Assembly: GCF_003568865.1 (NCBI RefSeq)
Contig: NZ_CP031115.1
Coordinates: 1,984,001 to 2,048,000, forward strand
From: Rubrobacter indicoceani
GTDB taxonomy: Bacteria > Actinomycetota > Rubrobacteria > Rubrobacterales > Rubrobacteraceae
Length of the DNA: 64,000 nt
Reading direction: 5' to 3'
Part shown: positions 2,131 to 10,168 of the stretch, one piece after another
Layout of the letters: each line of letters opens with the position of its first letter
Numbering within the stretch: position 1 is the stretch's first letter
Notes under the pieces: generated by a model
What the model was told of the DNA's origin: nothing
The model's database searches: none
Seen by the model: only the letters and a program-made list of their open reading frames with translations
Made by a program: the position numbers and the translations under genes

Positions 2131-3345
2131 ATGGGTCGCGTGATGAAAAAGAGCGTCAACAATCCGGCCTCGTCGTTTCGGGCGTTCTGCGTCATGGCCG
2201 CCCTGCATACGGTGGTCTGCGCCGTCGTGGTGCTGCTCGCGTACGCCAACGGACCGGCGTTTCAGGTCGAGATCTTCCGCGACTACGCCGACAAACTCGC
2301 CGCCGGCCTCGTCCCTTACGCGGACTTCCCCCACGAATACCCGCCGACGAGCCTTGCGATCCTTCTTCTTCCCAGACTCCTAACCGACGATCCGACGCTC
2401 TATGCCGGTCTGTTCTCGTTGCAGATCCTTGTCTGCGACCTCGTGATCCTCTACCTGCTGAGCCGTCTCGGCCCGAAACCCGTCCTGCTCTACGGGGTCG
2501 GGATGCTTCTTTTCTGGCGCGTTCCTTTTATTCGCCACGATCTCGTCCCGGTGATGGTCGCGACCCTCGGGGCGTTCGCGGTTCTGCGCGGGCGTTTCGT
2601 TCTCGCCGCCGTTCTCTGGGGCTTCGGCGGCGCGTTGAAGCTCTACCCCATCGTCGCCGCTCCGGTCCTCGCCTTCGGCGCGACCCTCGGGCAGACGTTT
2701 GCCCGGTGGTCTGTGGCGTGGGCCGTTTTTCTGGTCGGGCTTTTATGGGGTCTGGTCGCCTTCGGCCCCGATTCCCTGATGTTCCTGACCTACCACGCCG
2801 ACCGACCGGCGCAGGTCGAGAGCATCCCCGGCAACATTCAGTTTTTTCTCCCGAACCCGGAGGTCGTCAACACCTACGGCAGCTTCAACGTCGTCGGCCC
2901 GGGCGGCGGGGCTCTTGTCTCGGCGTTTACCTTCGTGCAGTTCGGGCTGGTGCTTCTCGGGCTGGCGGTGGCGTATCTGCAGTGGCGGGGCGCGTCAGAC
3001 CACGAACTGCGGGTTGCGATGCTGCGCGGGGCGATGCTTGCGACGTTCGCGTTCTCGGTCTTCGGGAAGGTGCTTGCGTGGCACTATTTCTTCTGGCCGC
3101 TACCGCTTATGGCGATGGTCTACGGGCTGTACGGGTTCAGGCATCCGCGCCTCGTCTGGGGGCTGTACTTCGCCGCCATCGCCCTGACGACCGTTATAAA
3201 CGAGGCTTACCGGACCCTGGAGGACGCCCTTCCGGCTTTCGTCGCGATGCTGACGGTCCGGGATCTACTCGTGCTTCCGGTCTTTTTCCTGATGCTGCTC
3301 CGTCCGGGTGCTCCGGTGGAAGACCCAGGCGACAAGCCCGACTAG
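2131..3345 (+). CDS. GT87/DUF2029-type integral membrane glycosyltransferase
   Basis: This 404-residue protein is almost entirely membrane helices. After the first helix comes a loop with FRDYADKLAAGLVPYADF and EYPPTSLAILLLP, the signature seen in GT87 (DUF2029) polyprenyl-phosphate-sugar-dependent transferases. The Asp in FRDYA would be the catalytic acidic residue by analogy with other GT-C enzymes. It probably adds a sugar to an extracytoplasmic acceptor using a lipid-linked donor. Its 3' end overlaps the 3' end of the convergent GT39-like gene by 81 bp. An in-frame alternative start is the ATG at codon 5. The substrate cannot be inferred. Confidence 0.75.
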   Translation: MGRVMKKSVNNPASSFRAFCVMAALHTVVCAVVVLLAYANGPAFQVEIFRDYADKLAAGLVPYADFPHEYPPTSLAILLLPRLLTDDPTLYAGLFSLQILVCDLVILYLLSRLGPKPVLLYGVGMLLFWRVPFIRHDLVPVMVATLGAFAVLRGRFVLAAVLWGFGGALKLYPIVAAPVLAFGATLGQTFARWSVAWAVFLVGLLWGLVAFGPDSLMFLTYHADRPAQVESIPGNIQFFLPNPEVVNTYGSFNVVGPGGGALVSAFTFVQFGLVLLGLAVAYLQWRGASDHELRVAMLRGAMLATFAFSVFGKVLAWHYFFWPLPLMAMVYGLYGFRHPRLVWGLYFAAIALTTVINEAYRTLEDALPAFVAMLTVRDLLVLPVFFLMLLRPGAPVEDPGDKPD

Positions 3346-5031
3346 CCCGATCCCGACGATAAGGGCGTTGAAGACCCCGACCTGCCGAGCCGGTGGCCGG
3401 CCCTCGACCCCGAGCGTGCCTCCGACCTGCTCCCCGCTGTATATCGCGACGAACCGCACGCCACCCTTTGCGTACTCGTAGAGCGGCTCCTGCCTTTCGA
3501 GGGCGAGCATCTGGTCCGTGTAGATCGACTGCCTCGGCAGGAAAAGGAAGTACGACCCTTCGCGGGGCGTCTCGTCGGTGGTAAACCGGCCGGAGGCTAT
3601 CGGGGCGAGGTAGGCCGGGCGCAGGTCCTCGCGAAGCTGTCCGGAGCGGCGGTAGCTCTCCGCGACCGGGTAGGTTCCGGCCTGAACGTAGACCGTCGCC
3701 CCCTCGGGCGCGTTCCGGTTCACCCACCTGACGGCGGGCCCATACGTGTCGGCCAGGTAAGTTGTCTCAAAGCCGAGGGCGTTCGCCCCCGGTACCAGCC
3801 CGACCGCCTCACCGTAGTATTCCAGCGAGTTGGAGAGACCCGTCCAGAGGATGCCCGGCAACGCGAGCGAGGCGTACGTGACGAGCACGATGGGCAGGAC
3901 CCGCCTCCCCGCGAAACGCCTCCGCAGCTTCATCACCACCCATCCGACCCCGACCCCGGCGCACATCGCCCAGAGCGGGAACGCGGCGAGAAACTGCCTC
4001 GGGCCGCCGTAGACCGGGGTAAGGCCAGAGGCCGCGACCGCAAGAACAGCGGCGAGGTTCAGGAGAAGCCACGCCGGGGCCGGGGCTCCGGCGCTCTTCA
4101 GGAGCCGGACGGAGCCGGTTGTTCCGGCGACCGCTACGACAAGCGGCACGAAGACGATCAGCGAGACAAGCGGGTAGTGAAACGGCGCGCCCGCCCAGAG
4201 TTGTCCGAGATAGAAAGTAAAGCGTTCGTCCTGAAGGCCGCCGGCCCAGGTCAGAAACTCCAGGGTGCGAGGTATCGGCTCCGGCCAGATCCAGGGCCAG
4301 ACGGCGAAGAACGCCATCGCTCCGACGGCAAAGCCTGCAAAGAGCCGGACAAAGACGACCACCCGCCGGTGGAAAAGCGCCGCGAAGACAAGGGAGCAAA
4401 CAACGAGCGGAAAGACCGTTATCTTTGTCGCAAATGCCATCCCGACCAGCAGCCCGGTCAAAACAACCCTCCGGTGCGAAACCTCACCCCGCGCAACAAG
4501 CGAGAACAGCGCGACCATCGAAACAACGTACATCGAGGCCACCGCTCCGTCCAGCTGCCCGAGCCTTGCGAACCCGAAGAGAACCGGGATCAAAGGCATC
4601 GTAACGACCGTCCCCCACGCCGCCTCCACCCCGAACTCCCGCCGCAAGAACCGGAACGCCACGCAGGTCGAGATCAGGAACAGAACATAAGACCCCATCC
4701 GGTAGAAATTTCCAAGAGCAACAAGGTCGTCCGTCCCGACAAACGCAACACCGAGGATCGCAAACACCCCGCCCCAGAGCTTGAAGAATGGCGGAGCCTC
4801 GTGGCTCTGCTCCCAGAACCGGTCGATCGAGGAAAACCACCCGGAAGGGTTCGCGAAAACCTCCCCGACCCACGAGAGGTAGAGGTACGAAGACCCGAAA
4901 TAGTTCGGCTCGTCCCAGGTAATGCCGATGCTCCCGACGGTCAGAACCCCCGCCACGAACAACCCCGCAAGAAACACGAACAGCCCGATTCTCCCGGCGG
5001 TGAATATCTTCTCGCGCTTCACGAAAACCAT
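3265..5031 (-). CDS. GT39/ArnT-like membrane glycosyltransferase
   Basis: This 588-residue polytopic protein has a first membrane helix at about residues 15-36, directly followed by TWDEPNY (Asp40-Glu41). That is the acidic pair at the start of the first extracytoplasmic loop in PMT/ArnT-family GT-C enzymes. About ten further hydrophobic segments follow, then a soluble periplasmic-type domain from about residue 420 (YVQAGTYPVAESYRR) and a last C-terminal helix. It likely transfers a sugar from a polyprenyl phosphate donor, which the GT2 enzyme at 6.9 kb could make. The final 27 codons overlap the convergent GT87 gene. The acceptor is unknown. Confidence 0.75.
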   Translation of the reverse strand: MVFVKREKIFTAGRIGLFVFLAGLFVAGVLTVGSIGITWDEPNYFGSSYLYLSWVGEVFANPSGWFSSIDRFWEQSHEAPPFFKLWGGVFAILGVAFVGTDDLVALGNFYRMGSYVLFLISTCVAFRFLRREFGVEAAWGTVVTMPLIPVLFGFARLGQLDGAVASMYVVSMVALFSLVARGEVSHRRVVLTGLLVGMAFATKITVFPLVVCSLVFAALFHRRVVVFVRLFAGFAVGAMAFFAVWPWIWPEPIPRTLEFLTWAGGLQDERFTFYLGQLWAGAPFHYPLVSLIVFVPLVVAVAGTTGSVRLLKSAGAPAPAWLLLNLAAVLAVAASGLTPVYGGPRQFLAAFPLWAMCAGVGVGWVVMKLRRRFAGRRVLPIVLVTYASLALPGILWTGLSNSLEYYGEAVGLVPGANALGFETTYLADTYGPAVRWVNRNAPEGATVYVQAGTYPVAESYRRSGQLREDLRPAYLAPIASGRFTTDETPREGSYFLFLPRQSIYTDQMLALERQEPLYEYAKGGVRFVAIYSGEQVGGTLGVEGRPPARQVGVFNALIVGIGLVGLVAWVFHRSTRTEQHQEKDRKHE

Positions 5032-5062
5032 TCTAGCCCGCCGGAGACAGAGACAAATCTCT

Positions 5063-5092
5063 CTGACAACCTCAAATTACTCCAGAGATACT
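5063..5092 (+). promoter_or_regulatory. Possible sigma-A-type promoter ahead of the mini-ORF cluster
   Basis: CTGACA (5063-5068) and GATACT (5087-5092) are separated by 18 bp on the plus strand. They match the vegetative -35/-10 consensus at 5 of 6 and 4 of 6 positions. A transcript from here would carry all three MSEGKARFW mini-ORFs and could continue into the gene at 5471. Confidence 0.3.
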
Positions 5093-5171
5093 TCCAAAGC
5101 CCCGGCCCCGGATACTAAGATGAGTACAGACGTGTCAAAAGAAACACCCGACAAAGGGGAGGTGAGACCGA

Positions 5172-5201
5172 ATGTCCGAAGGCAAGGCCCGCTTCTGGTA
5201 G
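5172..5201 (+). CDS. Nine-codon mini-ORF, copy 1 (MSEGKARFW)
   Basis: ATG to TAG encodes the peptide MSEGKARFW. A nearly ideal Shine-Dalgarno sequence, GGGGAGGTGA (5156-5165), lies 6 nt upstream of the ATG. Two more copies follow within 225 bp. Codons here use AAG for Lys and CGC for Arg. The differences between the three copies change no residue of the peptide. I do not recognise the peptide. It could be a tiny precursor or signal peptide, or a ribosome-stalling leader. No modification enzyme such as a radical SAM protein or P450 is present nearby. Confidence 0.6.
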   Translation: MSEGKARFW

Positions 5202-5275
5202 GAAGCTCGAAAGCAGCCGAGACCCCGGCAGGAAAACTCCGCTGCAAGGTCAGGAGATCAGGGAGGTGAAGTTAA

Positions 5276-5305
5276 GTGTCCGAAGGCAAAGCCCGCTTCT
5301 GGTAG
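5276..5305 (+). CDS. Nine-codon mini-ORF, copy 2 (MSEGKARFW)
   Basis: This is a second copy of the same nine-residue peptide, starting at GTG instead of ATG and using AAA for Lys. GGGAGGTGA (5261-5269) lies 6 nt upstream. The flanks outside the ribosome binding site and coding triplets are unlike copies 1 and 3. The conserved part is therefore essentially the translation signal plus the peptide. Confidence 0.6.
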   Translation: MSEGKARFW

Positions 5306-5366
5306 GGACAAGAGACAGCTTTCAGATCCGTACTCAACAAACCAGACAAAGGGGAGGTGAGATCGA

Positions 5367-5396
5367 ATGTCCGAAGGCAAAGCCCGTTTCTGGTAG
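5367..5396 (+). CDS. Nine-codon mini-ORF, copy 3 (MSEGKARFW)
   Basis: This third copy uses ATG, AAA for Lys and CGT for Arg. GGGGAGGTGA (5351-5360) lies 6 nt upstream. Its 5' flank (gacaaaggggaggtgaga) matches copy 1 closely, indicating segmental duplication. The stop is 74 nt before the ATG of the HD-GYP-like gene at 5471. The cluster may therefore be its leader region or an independent small gene set. Confidence 0.6.
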   Translation: MSEGKARFW

Positions 5397-5411
5397 AGAG
5401 TAAAAAAGAGA

Positions 5412-5469
5412 GAGGATTCTTTATCGCCGGCCTGTACGGAAAGTTTGCCGTGCTCTAAGATAAATCCTC
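5412..5469 (+). repeat. Imperfect inverted repeat abutting the start codon at 5471
   Basis: GAGGATTCTTTATC (5412-5425) is complementary, apart from a 3-nt insertion, to GATAAATCCTC (5459-5469), with 33 nt between the arms. The right arm ends one base before the ATG of the next gene and occupies the place where a ribosome binding site should be. The stem could restrict initiation. No U-run follows, so it is not a terminator. Confidence 0.4.
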
Positions 5470-5470
5470 G

Positions 5471-6859
5471 ATGGTGGAAACAGGGGGCAACAGAGATCAG
5501 ATAAAAGTCGTCGAGGCTTTTATATACTGCCTTGCGGTGGTTTCGCTTGCCTTTCTTTGCTGGTCCCTTCTGCACTTTCCGATGCCGGTCGGCCGGACGG
5601 AGATCCTTGTCGCCTCTGTTCTGGCTCTGAGCAGCGGCCTGTCGCGCGTTTTTCCGGTCGATTTCGGTCGGGGCAGAGGAGTAGAGGTCTCCGATGTGGC
5701 CGTACTCTCTGCGCTTGTGGTGCTGGGGCCCTTGTGGGCCGTGGTCGTTGCGCTCCCGCTGATGGTGTACAGGAGTCCGCTCAGGAGCACCTTCTCGGCA
5801 GCGGGCGACACCGTAGCCATCCTGAGTTCCGGGTACGTATTCTCTCTGTTTGCGGAGCCGGTCCTGCTGTCGGGCTCACTCGGGGCATCCTCCGTATACG
5901 CGGTCGTGGCGGCGGGGGCGACGTTCTATGTGACGGATGCGATCGTCAACTCGGTTTTTGCCCGGCTGAAGTACGGTGTTCCGGTGCTCACGACGGTATC
6001 CGAGTTTTTCGTGCCTATAATTCCCTCGGACATACTCGCCATACTCGCCGCGCTTGGAACGTCTTACGTGCTCGTAGTGTTCGGGCCGGCGGCGGCTCTG
6101 GTGCTGTTCCTCGGTGCGGCTGGGGCTCTGATCTCCCTGAACCTCATCTACACCCGCCAGCGGGAGAACGAGGCTCTAAAGCAGGAGAACGCCGACCTTC
6201 TCTCGGCGAACGTCCGGTTTGCGGCGGCGCTGGTCGGGGCGGTCGGAGCAAAGAGTCCGGATCTGGTGCGGCGGACAAATGCTTCGGCGGTTTATGCGGG
6301 GGACATCGGGGCGGAGTTTGGGTTCGGGCGGGAGCATCTGGACCAGCTGAGGATGGCGGCTCTGCTTCAGGATGTAGGCTTCGCGGGCGTGCCGGACGCG
6401 GTCGTGAGGGCCGAGCCGGAGCGACTGAACCGGGAGGGTCGCTCGGAGCTTGCACGTCATCCGGTCGTCGGAGAGGAGATCCTTGCAAGCGTTCCGGGCC
6501 TGGAGGAGGCCGCGAAGTGGGTCAGGTGGCACCACGAACGGCAGGACGGCTCAGGTTTCCCGGACGGTTTGAAGGCGCGGTGGATACCGCTCGAGGCCCG
6601 CATCCTGGCCGTTGCCTCGACGTACGCCTCGCTGGTGCCGAAGCTATCGCCCCGCGAAGCCCGTTTCGTCCTTGCTTCCGGGGTGAACGGCGAGGTGGCG
6701 GTGTTCGACGCCGAAGTCGTCAAAGCCCTGCTGCGGGTGCTGGACCGTGAAGACAGAGACTACTCGCAGGCCGCCGGGGAGCGGTTCTCCGAAGCCGCAG
6801 GGTCCGGGTCGGAGAACAGAGTCCCTAACCTTCGGGTCGTGGGCGGACGCGAGGGGTGA
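5471..6859 (+). CDS. Membrane protein with degenerate HD-GYP domain
   Basis: This 462-residue protein has about six N-terminal membrane helices (to roughly residue 225), a short coiled linker (RQRENEALKQENADLL), then an HD-GYP-like domain. The HHERQDGSGFP motif is intact (His354-His355). The hallmark HD pair is Gln300-Asp301 (LLQDVG instead of LLHDIG), the first-helix His is absent, and VADxY has become VASTY. Most metal ligands are therefore lost, and cyclic-di-GMP hydrolysis is unlikely. It may bind a nucleotide or act as a scaffold or sensor. The start has no clear ribosome binding site and is preceded by an inverted repeat and the three mini-ORFs. Confidence 0.75.
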   Translation: MVETGGNRDQIKVVEAFIYCLAVVSLAFLCWSLLHFPMPVGRTEILVASVLALSSGLSRVFPVDFGRGRGVEVSDVAVLSALVVLGPLWAVVVALPLMVYRSPLRSTFSAAGDTVAILSSGYVFSLFAEPVLLSGSLGASSVYAVVAAGATFYVTDAIVNSVFARLKYGVPVLTTVSEFFVPIIPSDILAILAALGTSYVLVVFGPAAALVLFLGAAGALISLNLIYTRQRENEALKQENADLLSANVRFAAALVGAVGAKSPDLVRRTNASAVYAGDIGAEFGFGREHLDQLRMAALLQDVGFAGVPDAVVRAEPERLNREGRSELARHPVVGEEILASVPGLEEAAKWVRWHHERQDGSGFPDGLKARWIPLEARILAVASTYASLVPKLSPREARFVLASGVNGEVAVFDAEVVKALLRVLDREDRDYSQAAGERFSEAAGSGSENRVPNLRVVGGREG

Positions 6860-6916
6860 TCCCGTGCGCCCGTCCGTGTTTCAGGCGGGTTTCGGCACCA
6901 GTTCCGGAGCGTGGAG

Positions 6917-6922
6917 TATACT
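6917..6922 (+). promoter_or_regulatory. -10 box implying a leaderless GT2 transcript
   Basis: TATACT lies 9 nt before the ATG at 6932. No Shine-Dalgarno sequence is present between them. Transcription should therefore begin at or near the start codon. Confidence 0.4.
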
Positions 6923-6931
6923 CGCGGGGTC

Positions 6932-8005
6932 ATGCAGCAACAGAGATCCGAAATAGAACCATCACACCCGGACGAACGCGCCGCCCTTGACCGGGCCTCG
7001 GCCTTCGACGGCGTCTCCGTCGTTGTACCGGTCTTCAACGAGGTCGAGTGCATCGAACGGACCCAGGCGGAGATAGCCGCGGCCCTTTCCGGTGTTCCGC
7101 ACGAGATCATCTACATAGACGACGGCTCGACCGACGGCACGGCAAAGGTTCTGGAGGGCATCGTCGCTGCGAACGTGAACGTCCGGCTCGTGCGTTTCAG
7201 GCGCAACTTCGGCAAGAGTGCGGCTCTGGCCGCAGGCTTCGGGCGGGTCGGCTACTCGACCGTCGCCACGATGGACGCCGACCTGCAGGACGACCCGCAG
7301 GAGATACCGAAGCTCCTCAACAAGATGTTCGACGAAGACCTCGACCTTGTCTCCGGCTGGAAGCGCGACCGGAAAGACCCGCTGGAGAAGCGCATCCCGT
7401 CCAGGCTTTTCAACCGGACAACGCAGGTTCTCACGGGCGTGAAGCTCAACGACTTCAACTGCGGCCTGAAGGTCTACCGGACGGAGGTCGTTCGCGAGGT
7501 CACGCTCTACGGCGAGCTTCACCGCTACATCCCGGCCCTCGCTCACTACCGGGGTTTCCGGGTCGGTGAGGAGGCGGTTCACCACCGGCCGCGCGGCGGC
7601 GGCTCCTCGAAGTTCGGTCTGGAGCGGTACGTGCGGGGCATGTTCGACCTTATGAGCATCGTGTTTCTCGGGCTGTACCAGCGCCGTCCGCTGCATCTGT
7701 TCGGTGGGATCGGGATGGGCATCTCGTTTGTCGGGCTCCTTATCTGCACGTACCTGACGGTTCTGAAGTTCGCCGGGTACGGTATCGGAGACCGTCCGCT
7801 CCTTATCCTCGGGGTGCTGCTCATCATCGTCGGCATCCAGAGCATCTCGTTCGGCCTTATAGCGGAGCTTATCGCCCGCACGAGCTATGCCTCCTCCGAC
7901 CCGCCGTACAGCATCGCAAGCGAACACCGCCGCTACGCGGACGATACCGCAGACGCCGCCGGAATAGACCAGCCCCGCGCCTCGCACCGCCAGAACGGCG
8001 GCTGA
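6932..8005 (+). CDS. GT2 glycosyltransferase (polyprenyl-phosphate sugar synthase type)
   Basis: This 357-residue protein has a GT-A domain near residues 15-240: VVVPVFNEVE at the start, IYIDDGSTDGT, and the DxD-type MDADLQDDP. QxxRW-type motifs are replaced by the DPM1/GtrB-type HHRPRGGGSSKF. Two C-terminal membrane helices follow (IGMGISFVGLLICTYL; LLILGVLLIIVGIQSISFGLIAELI). This is the layout of undecaprenyl/dolichyl-phosphate glucose or mannose synthases. It would load a sugar onto a lipid carrier for the GT-C enzymes encoded nearby. A GTG at 6911 is in frame but lies upstream of the -10 box, so I prefer ATG 6932. Confidence 0.85.
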   Translation: MQQQRSEIEPSHPDERAALDRASAFDGVSVVVPVFNEVECIERTQAEIAAALSGVPHEIIYIDDGSTDGTAKVLEGIVAANVNVRLVRFRRNFGKSAALAAGFGRVGYSTVATMDADLQDDPQEIPKLLNKMFDEDLDLVSGWKRDRKDPLEKRIPSRLFNRTTQVLTGVKLNDFNCGLKVYRTEVVREVTLYGELHRYIPALAHYRGFRVGEEAVHHRPRGGGSSKFGLERYVRGMFDLMSIVFLGLYQRRPLHLFGGIGMGISFVGLLICTYLTVLKFAGYGIGDRPLLILGVLLIIVGIQSISFGLIAELIARTSYASSDPPYSIASEHRRYADDTADAAGIDQPRASHRQNGG

Positions 8006-8015
8006 GGCATCCGGC

Positions 8016-9215
8016 TTGAGAGTTCTTTTTGTAACCTCGACTTTTCCGCGCTCGGAGGCGGATGACCAGGTCCCCTGGCTTCTCGAGCTCGCCCTTGTCC
8101 TGAAGAGCAGGGGTGTGGACATAGAAGTTCTCGCCCCGACTTACGCCGGTCTTTCCAGTCACGAGGTCTTCGGCATTCCCGTTCACCGCTACCGCTACTG
8201 GAAGAAGACCGGCGAGGTGGTAACCCACGAAGCCGGGGCGATGAACAAGATGGGAAGCGGCTCGGGGATGTTTCTCCCGGCGCTCTCGCTTGTCGGGGCG
8301 GGGATGCTCGCGGCGGCGCGGCTGGCGCGAGGGCGGCGCTACGACGCCATCCACTCGCACTGGCCGCTCCCGATGGGCCTCCCGGCTCAGGCCGGGGCCT
8401 GGGCCTCTAAAGGCAACCCCCGCCTCGTCGCGACTTTTCACGGGGCCGAAGTCGCCCTTGCAAAGCGAAAGTCCCACTACCGCCCCGTTCTGAAGAAACT
8501 GACCGAAAACCTCGACGCGGCCATCGCCAACTCCCGCAGCACCGCAGAGACCGTAAGGGAGCTGACGGGTGTCTCACCCGAGGTGATCCCCTTCGGACCG
8601 CCGCGCGGCGCGGTGGACTTCTCCCGGGAACCCGACGGCTCGAGGAGCGAGGGGCTCCCAATCGTGCTGGCGGTCGGGCGCATGATTGAACGCAAGGGCT
8701 TCCCCGTTCTTGTGCGCGCCGCCGGGAAGCTGCGCGGCAGGGCGCGGGTCGTTATCGTCGGGGGCGGCGAGTACGAAGGCGTGGTGAAGCGGGAGATAGA
8801 GCTGCGCGGCCTCGGGGAGGACGTGGTCACGCTCGCCGGTCGTCTGACAAACAGGGAACTGGCCGCCGCCTACGCGGGATGCGCGGTTTTCTGTCTGCCC
8901 GCCATCTACGATTCGCGCGGCGAGACGGAGGGGCTGGGGGTCGTGTTGATCGAAGCCATGTCCCACGGTAAGCCGGTTGTCGCGAGCGGCATCGGCGGCA
9001 TCCCGGATGCGGTGGAGGACGGCGTCACGGGCCTCCTTGTAGAGCCGGACGACCCCGACCTGCTCGCAAAGACCCTTCTCCGCGTCATCGAGGACAAAGC
9101 TTTTGCAAAACAGCTCGGTGAGGCGGGTCTGAAGCGGGCAAGGAGCCTTTTCTCCTGGGAGAGCGTTGCCGCAAGGCACCTCGCTCTGTACAAGCCTTCG
9201 GAGACGCTGCGGTGA
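8016..9215 (+). CDS. GT4-family glycosyltransferase (GT-B fold)
   Basis: This 399-residue protein starts at TTG. The N-terminal Rossmann half begins MRVLFVTSTFPRSEADDQVP, with IHSHWPLPMGLPA and ATFHGAEV. The C-terminal nucleotide-sugar binding half has VGRMIERKGFPVLVRA and the E-x7-E region (GLGVVLIEAMSHGKPVVAS). These are hallmarks of retaining GT4 enzymes such as WcaL/PimB-like transferases. It is cytosolic or membrane-associated and acts on a lipid-linked or lipid acceptor. It follows the GT2 gene by 10 bp and overlaps the next gene by 4 bp, so the three form an operon. Confidence 0.85.
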   Translation: MRVLFVTSTFPRSEADDQVPWLLELALVLKSRGVDIEVLAPTYAGLSSHEVFGIPVHRYRYWKKTGEVVTHEAGAMNKMGSGSGMFLPALSLVGAGMLAAARLARGRRYDAIHSHWPLPMGLPAQAGAWASKGNPRLVATFHGAEVALAKRKSHYRPVLKKLTENLDAAIANSRSTAETVRELTGVSPEVIPFGPPRGAVDFSREPDGSRSEGLPIVLAVGRMIERKGFPVLVRAAGKLRGRARVVIVGGGEYEGVVKREIELRGLGEDVVTLAGRLTNRELAAAYAGCAVFCLPAIYDSRGETEGLGVVLIEAMSHGKPVVASGIGGIPDAVEDGVTGLLVEPDDPDLLAKTLLRVIEDKAFAKQLGEAGLKRARSLFSWESVAARHLALYKPSETLR

Positions 9216-10168
9216 AGCCTGCCGGTCGGGACGGGTCGGGGGTTCTGAGGCGGGCGAGAAAGCTGGTCGGCCCCGTACTCGTCTTGCTGGTCGCGGTTTT
9301 TCTGGTCCGTGCGCTTGTCTCAAGCTGGGATGAGGTACGAGATTACAGGTGGAGCTTCGACTTCTCGTTTCTCACGCTCTCCGTCGGGCTGATGTTTCTG
9401 TACTACGCTCAGCAGTGGGGCGGCTGGCGGCTCGTGATGCGCTCTTTCGGCGACCCGCTCTCGAGGTCGGAGTCGGTTGCGATCTGGTTTGCGACGATCC
9501 TTGGGCGGTACGTCCCCGGCAGCGTGGCGATGGTCGCCGGGCGGGTCGTGATGTGCCAGCGAAGGGGTATTCCGGCCCGGGATACGCTCGCGAGCATCGT
9601 CTACGAGAACGCCCTCATCCTTATAAGCGCGCTTGTCGTAACGGCGGCCTCCGTCCCGTTCTGGCCGGACTTCGAGTACCGCCCGTACGCGCTTCTGCTG
9701 GTTGTTCTCGCCCCGGTCGGGCTGGCCATGATCCACCCGAAGGTCTTCAGGCGGGCCGCGAACTTCGCCTTGAAGAAAACAAACCGCGAGCCGCTCGAAA
9801 AGACCCTGAGCTTCGGTCGAGTTCTGGCCCTGCTCGCGTACTACGTCGGTGGCTGGGTGCTGCTCGGGCTGGCGTTTGCCTGCCTTACGGCTTCGGTGGC
9901 CCCGGTCGAGTTTTCGCTTCCGGAGGTAGCGCTGCTCATCGGCGGTTACGCCTTTGCGTGGGAGGTAGGGTTTCTCTCGCTTGTAACGCCGAGCGGCCTC
10001 GGGGTAAAAGAAGCGGTCCTGGCCCTTGTCCTCTCCCTTGTCCTGCCCGTCCCCGCCGTCGTAGCGGTCGTCGTGCTCTCGAGGCTCTGGCAGACGCTTG
10101 TAGAGCTGGCCTGCGCCGGGGCGGTGTGGGCGTTCTTCAAGGGGACGCAGGCTCTACGGAACCGCTAG
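9212..10168 (+). CDS. Flippase-like/lysylphosphatidylglycerol synthase TM-region family protein
   Basis: This 318-residue integral membrane protein belongs to the UPF0104 (LPG synthase TM, flippase-like) type. Supporting motifs are YYAQQWGGWRLVMRSFG after the second helix, WFATILGRYVPGSVAMVAGR, and the glycine-rich FLSLVTPSGLGVKEAVLALVL near residues 255-278. Members transport or flip lipids next to glycosyltransferases. GTG overlaps the stop of the GT4 gene as GTGA. It ends 12 bp from the convergent Crp-type regulator gene. Confidence 0.75.
   Translation: MKPAGRDGSGVLRRARKLVGPVLVLLVAVFLVRALVSSWDEVRDYRWSFDFSFLTLSVGLMFLYYAQQWGGWRLVMRSFGDPLSRSESVAIWFATILGRYVPGSVAMVAGRVVMCQRRGIPARDTLASIVYENALILISALVVTAASVPFWPDFEYRPYALLLVVLAPVGLAMIHPKVFRRAANFALKKTNREPLEKTLSFGRVLALLAYYVGGWVLLGLAFACLTASVAPVEFSLPEVALLIGGYAFAWEVGFLSLVTPSGLGVKEAVLALVLSLVLPVPAVVAVVVLSRLWQTLVELACAGAVWAFFKGTQALRNR

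Follow-up and report, generated by a model that had tools for sequence, protein, structure and literature searches.

Tandem nine-codon genes upstream of a MASE9-like membrane sensor in Rubrobacter indicoceani: candidate genes for a leaderless peptide ligand

Introduction

Leaderless communication peptides, known from SIP of Streptococcus pyogenes and its relatives, are secreted without a signal sequence, and their receptors are cytosolic regulators (PMC10518010). Few-codon genes are also found among the biarylitides, whose minimal precursors are five residues long (PMC13417212). What MASE domains sense is largely unexplained, and a 2022 review listed MASE1 among the domains without a discernible physiological purpose (PMC8846402).

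Here we describe an array of nine-codon genes in Rubrobacter indicoceani (Actinomycetota), located in a 64 kb stretch of the chromosome (contig NZ_CP031115.1, positions 1,984,001 to 2,048,000; hereafter the window, in whose numbering coordinates are given). The array stands immediately before a gene for a MASE9-like sensor and offers MASE9 a concrete ligand candidate encoded at the same place.

Results

Three nine-codon ORFs encode one peptide

A preliminary description of the window reported three nine-codon ORFs encoding one and the same peptide, and this was confirmed. The ORFs, which encode (M/V)SEGKARFW, lie on the forward strand at 5172..5201, 5276..5305 and 5367..5396, each with GGGAGGTGA ending 6 nt before its start, and the whole spans 225 bp. 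The Shine-Dalgarno (SD) sequence GGAGGTGA is located at 5158-5165, 5262-5269 and 5353-5360, respectively. Read from the sequence, the codons of the first copy are ATG TCC GAA GGC AAG GCC CGC TTC TGG TAG; the second copy has GTG at the start and AAA for lysine, while the third has ATG, AAA and CGT for arginine. The differences between copies are therefore limited to ATG/GTG, AAG/AAA and CGC/CGT, as the preliminary description had stated, and its observation that the flanks of the second copy have diverged also held (75% versus 93% over 56 nt). A scan of both strands of the 64 kb window, set to ORFs of 5-14 codons that follow an SD and close with Trp-stop, returned none besides these three.

A candidate promoter region for the array is located at 5063..5121 on the forward strand. 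It contains CTGACA-N18-GATACT at 5063-5092, one promoter-like match against 0.1 expected, and a -10-like TACTAAGAT at 5113-5121 that was read from the sequence as a second candidate site. The downstream gene has a separate promoter-like element, CTGTAC-N18-TAAGAT, found by pattern match in the interval between array and gene (5432..5461, forward strand). The pattern CT[AG]TAC-N18-TANNAT occurs in the same interval at five further loci (L005, L006, L008, L010 and L013), with no match in the remaining array loci. No terminator-like site was found in 5030-5520 of the window.

Domain searches identified the divergent neighbour of the array (3265..5031, reverse strand) as a PMT_2-type (GT-C) glycosyltransferase, and a related gene stands divergently upstream in L005 and L010. 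Beyond the sensor gene, three forward-strand genes are possible output genes: a GT2 glycosyltransferase (6911-8005), a GT4 glycosyltransferase (8016-9215) and an LPG_synthase_TM-domain protein (9212-10168). No tailoring gene, whether for a P450, a radical SAM enzyme or another type, lies beside the window array.

The adjacent gene encodes a MASE9-like sensor

The next gene after the array (5471-6859), whose pairing with the array had escaped the preliminary description, encodes a protein that combines a membrane domain at its N-terminus with an HD domain. Alone, the window sensor protein gave no Pfam match to MASE9 (PF20972) above the cut-off, and 2 of 33 sensor relatives matched MASE9 at E < 0.01. 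A Rubrobacter profile aligned with the MASE9 profile over 202 columns (hhalign 97.3%, E 2.5e-11), and a weak homolog from outside Rubrobacteraceae bears a recognised MASE9 domain. Profile comparison thus establishes that the sensor domain of the window protein (5471..6175, forward strand) is homologous to MASE9. To our knowledge, MASE9 has no known ligand.

An AlphaFold2 model of the window sensor protein (mean pLDDT 86) matched ECF S-components with its N-terminus (Z 11-13) and HD-GYP domains with its C-terminus (Z about 20). A second model, of a domain whose assignment to MASE9 is undisputed (mean pLDDT 90), had ECF-type transporter components in its top 21 rows (Z 9.7-13.6), and the next unrelated structural match had a Z of 7.5. 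On the basis of these models, the MASE9-type sensor domain is predicted to have an ECF S-component fold, with the invariant Arg105 a candidate residue of its pocket. After the S-components, the undisputed MASE9 model also matched the membrane part of the apolipoprotein N-acyltransferase Lnt (Z about 7).

The output domain, placed by domain search and model at 6188..6790 (forward strand), is HD-GYP-like and matches HD_5 with an E of 9e-28; in it HD is changed to QD and GYP to GFP. Among array-bearing Rubrobacter proteins the dyad reads QD, MD, RD, QN or HN (Q/M/R-D/N in group 1, mostly HN in group 2) and is intact as HD once (L020). The altered dyad indicates that many array-bearing proteins are probably inactive as phosphodiesterases, and the HD-GYP-like domain of the window is probably not an active one. 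A low-GC relative (L083) has an intact HDIGK.

Each locus of the family has its own peptide

Array loci were found by fetching orthologs and paralogs of gene 5471-6859 from the 39 family genomes, and the criteria of the short-ORF search were refined during the analysis; many genomes are metagenome-assembled (MAGs) and possibly incomplete. The layout proved common to the relatives, with mini-ORFs at the same place before most of the fetched genes: 79 mini-ORFs at 34 loci in 23 Rubrobacteraceae genomes, 1-5 per locus, directly upstream of the sensor orthologs and paralogs. An exact-pattern search of the 39 genomes found SEGKARFW itself in the source genome only. The search for the same peptide across Rubrobacteria that the preliminary description proposed could not have succeeded, since the peptide is distinct at each locus and nearly identical among the copies of its array.

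The constant part of the peptides is their end. Every one of the 79 mini-ORFs at the 34 loci ends in Trp-stop, K, R or H stands two residues before the Trp in 64, and the Rubrobacter array peptides are 5-11 residues long. Four copies encode VSEGKIHAW, one of them as VAEGKIHAW; three-copy arrays encode MREGKSHIW (one copy MTEGKSHIW), MTEGTARAW (one copy MTEANARAW) and MTFGQRHGW (one copy MNFAQRHGW). Shorter peptides are MGRKAW (three copies), MARKSW (two), MARRSW (four) and, in the same genus as the source, MPRIASW, with five copies of which one has a longer start. The MPRIASW array (L016/L051, G010) precedes a sensor gene that is split over two frames, by either a frameshift or an assembly error. 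The first copy of L007, which has TGGCAA instead of TGGTAA and so has lost its stop, is apparently decaying.

The source genome contains a second array, MTDRSKAW/MNDRSKAW, before a second MASE9-like paralog outside the window (L042, G000, about 1,827,400). This array stands behind an MFS transporter gene. Judged from translations, an MFS-type transporter gene precedes the group 2 arrays, and its role as a peptide exporter is a lead rather than evidence. Some Rubrobacter paralogs have no array before them (L047-L050, L052 and L053); these too stand behind an MFS gene, and their HD dyad is intact in L047-L049 and HN in L050.

In the sequence scanned, mini-ORFs were confined to the upstream side of sensor genes. 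Around 19 loci for which long flanks were available, 39 were found within 700 nt upstream on the sensor strand and none in the other roughly 151,000 strand-nt. With the strict pattern SD-ATG-TGGTAR, true arrays were found in five complete genomes solely at sensor-type loci.

Selection acts on the peptide

The preliminary description had argued that the conservation reflects selection for translation, and comparison of the copies bears this out. Pooled within-array dN/dS was 0.137, with 109.7 synonymous versus 75.3 nonsynonymous differences (66 copy pairs, 29 arrays). There were 46 amino-acid-changing codon differences, whereas 1000 random placements gave a mean of 124.6 and a minimum of 110. 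Copy pairs within one array are non-independent, and so these figures should be taken as a strong trend and not as an exact test.

Identity between copies was 0.84 in the coding part; in the 30-nt flanks it was 0.52 ahead of the SD and 0.51 behind the stop, the level of random 30-mers (0.52). It follows that the copies are old, with the SD and the peptide alone being kept. The low dN/dS ratio combined with flanks at random identity argues that selection acts on the peptide. Taken together, selection at the level of translation on the peptide and the pairing of the array with a sensor gene are established by comparative sequence analysis.

Peptide and sensor also change in step, as judged from a tree and from Mantel correlations between their distances in group 1 (r 0.38, p 0.0005) and group 2 (r 0.29, p 0.04); simple co-inheritance would produce such correlated divergence as well.

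Small ORFs accompany MASE9 genes beyond Rubrobacteraceae

In low-GC MAGs of another actinobacterial class, 1-3 copies of genes for 20-23 residue peptides ending in VRW stand upstream of homologous sensors (e.g. MKKLMRVLIVLGSLVGICSTVRW and MARFFKLIFSFVGLGSTVRW). A hydrophobic ORF of 18-45 codons that follows an SD and has a basic/aromatic tail occurred in 23 of 76 further MASE9 upstream windows, where control DNA would yield 0.3, under criteria that were partly set after examples had been seen. The majority of MASE9 windows from outside Rubrobacter have no recognisable peptide. The long forms, found in many actinobacterial families, are usually 20-30 residues long; they begin with basic residues, continue with a hydrophobic stretch and end in a short tail (for example GAGWRW, GAHWRW, GARFRF, GATWRY, GAPRKW or STVRW); close tail variants (GAGGRLG, GAGSRMG, GAKWN and GAGWKAN) occur in several more MASE9 windows. 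In their arrangement the long forms resemble single-span peptides whose tail lies outside, and Rubrobacter seems to keep just this tail. A leaderless peptide, MKRGKQAW, is encoded outside Rubrobacteraceae at L150. In L150, L174 and L195, visual inspection showed terminator-like hairpins in the interval from the peptide ORF to the MASE9 gene, suggesting a separate short transcript.

Peptides also occur beside genes with other outputs, namely GGDEF-EAL (L086, L138) and a histidine kinase (L124), indicating that the peptide goes with the sensor domain and not with the output. A similar small ORF is present in Bacillota (MNKVVLILVTLLGVVLAGGASFTWGGGG in Natranaerobius thermophilus and MKKILFALASLCSLVLASGAFFCVR in Subdoligranulum variabile; two plasmid records). 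When contigs were searched with a profile from a narrow MASE9 alignment, the matches were actinobacterial MAGs only. An HD-GYP match on a Thermus thermophilus plasmid (L211) had no recognisable peptide and aligned outside the sensor domain, and was discarded. Ten long-form peptides examined for a relation to AgrD gave no NCBIfam or Pfam model above the cut-off, in a search where very short queries score poorly.

Discussion

Conservation within arrays, change in step with the sensor, a constant end and an adjacent sensor with the fold of a ligand pocket are together best read as the marks of a ligand, and we consider it probable that the array peptide is the leaderless ligand of the adjacent MASE9-type receptor. 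Among the roles offered in the preliminary description, a signalling peptide is the one that fits best. On this reading the array would produce fMSEGKARFW, a tiny leaderless peptide, from several gene copies with strong ribosome-binding sites of their own, and this peptide would serve as cognate ligand for the membrane sensor of the next gene. Once exported from the cell, it would bind the MASE9-type N-terminal domain on its outer face through the basic-x-Trp C-terminus. Binding may then bring the cytosolic HD-GYP-like domain into another state, and the output would probably be control of the neighbouring surface-polysaccharide genes.

The Rubrobacter peptides have no export signal, which is a point against their reaching an outward-facing pocket and in favour of a regulatory microprotein, held within the cell or its membrane and never secreted, that acts as subunit or inhibitor of the sensor in the cell that makes it. 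The long forms, being basic and hydrophobic with a short tail, could then be single-span membrane partners. We nevertheless consider such a microprotein unlikely: the 5-11 residue peptides of Rubrobacter are too short to span a membrane, yet have the same type of C-terminal tail, and multi-copy arrays with species-specific change fit a signal better than a structural subunit. Less likely still is a cis-acting leader, in which translation of the mini-ORF, with its Trp before the stop, would control transcription or translation of the sensor gene by attenuation or ribosome stalling. The array is always upstream on the sensor strand, some non-Rubrobacter loci have terminator-like hairpins (seen by eye) before the sensor gene, and UGA stops are avoided (TAG 41, TAA 37 and TGA 1 in the 79 mini-ORFs versus TAG 18, TGA 15 and TAA 4 in 37 window genes). 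However, arrays hold up to five copies, each ORF has a single Trp codon, and the remaining residues are kept within arrays while shifting as a unit between species. A simple leader is also disfavoured by the promoter-like element that separates array and sensor gene in the window and at five further loci. With this element and no terminator in the window, the ribosome-stalling role raised in the preliminary description was not borne out.

That description had also suggested a precursor of a modified peptide. Very short leaderless precursors do exist (PMC13417212), and the terminal aromatic residue could be modified, with the sensor serving as regulator of a modified or antimicrobial product. 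A minimal precursor of this kind is very improbable here, as the array has no tailoring gene beside it, its neighbours being glycosyltransferases and an LPG_synthase_TM gene, and its constant partner is the sensor. The least credible reading is a structured RNA repeat or an array of binding sites in which the reading frame is incidental. The preliminary description had raised it as a caveat after noticing a small hairpin, and the strong conservation of the SD sequence is consistent with it. Folding z-scores are nevertheless near zero (-0.8 to +0.4), the third copy folds unlike the first two, an Rfam search of the array gave matches at chance level alone and no family, and the differences between copies are synonymous far beyond chance.

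A broader form of the ligand reading is that MASE9 domains are generally receptors, with an S-component-like fold, for tiny peptides from adjacent genes, feeding c-di-GMP enzymes and histidine kinases in Actinomycetota and Bacillota; Rubrobacteraceae would be the extreme form, with tandem leaderless mini-genes of 5-11 codons and a locus-specific peptide. We regard this generalization as evenly balanced. If true, peptide signalling between cells would act on c-di-GMP proteins without an intermediate, a route distinct from the known transcription-factor receptors. Genes of 5-11 codons, which annotation pipelines miss, are reliably findable through their repetition and the receptor beside them. 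Within the sources searched (open-licence PMC, Pfam and NCBIfam), no earlier description of this putative class of peptide ligand was found; one may exist elsewhere. The open-licence PMC literature contained no relevant paper on a ligand or peptide partner of MASE9/PF20972, and gave no link to MASE9 for the Thermotoga maritima peptide TM0504.

Comparison with known systems

Biarylitide-type RiPP precursors are likewise encoded by few-codon genes, whereas the genes described here are tandem, paired with a sensor and without a cross-linking P450. An amino-acid leader or attenuator has repeated regulatory codons and a terminator; here there is one Trp codon per ORF, and nothing terminator-like in 5030-5520. 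The output domain shares the HD fold of HD-GYP c-di-GMP phosphodiesterases, but neither its metal-binding HD dyad nor its GYP motif is intact (QD and GFP). The sensor domain of the window protein is a homolog of MASE9 (PF20972) that Pfam alone does not recognise. The predicted fold is shared with ECF S-components (RibU, ThiT, BioY and NikM), from which the window domain differs in being fused to a signalling domain rather than coupled to a transporter, and structural-alignment identity is about 8-16%.

The SHP and other RRNPPA propeptides resemble the 20-30 residue relatives found here in their basic start, hydrophobic stretch, short C-terminal tail and adjacent receptor, but the partner here is MASE9 and not an RRNPPA receptor, and the Rubrobacter forms are without the hydrophobic part. 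The closest worked example is that of the leaderless communication peptides and RopB, which share with this locus a very short peptide, the absence of a secretion signal, a strong ribosome-binding site, a gene beside the receptor and a sequence that varies with the receptor clan (PMC10518010). Those receptors are cytosolic Rgg-type (TPR) proteins of Firmicutes, while the window receptor is a membrane sensor of Actinomycetota with MASE9-like and HD-GYP-like domains, and its peptide is encoded in tandem copies with a basic-x-Trp end.
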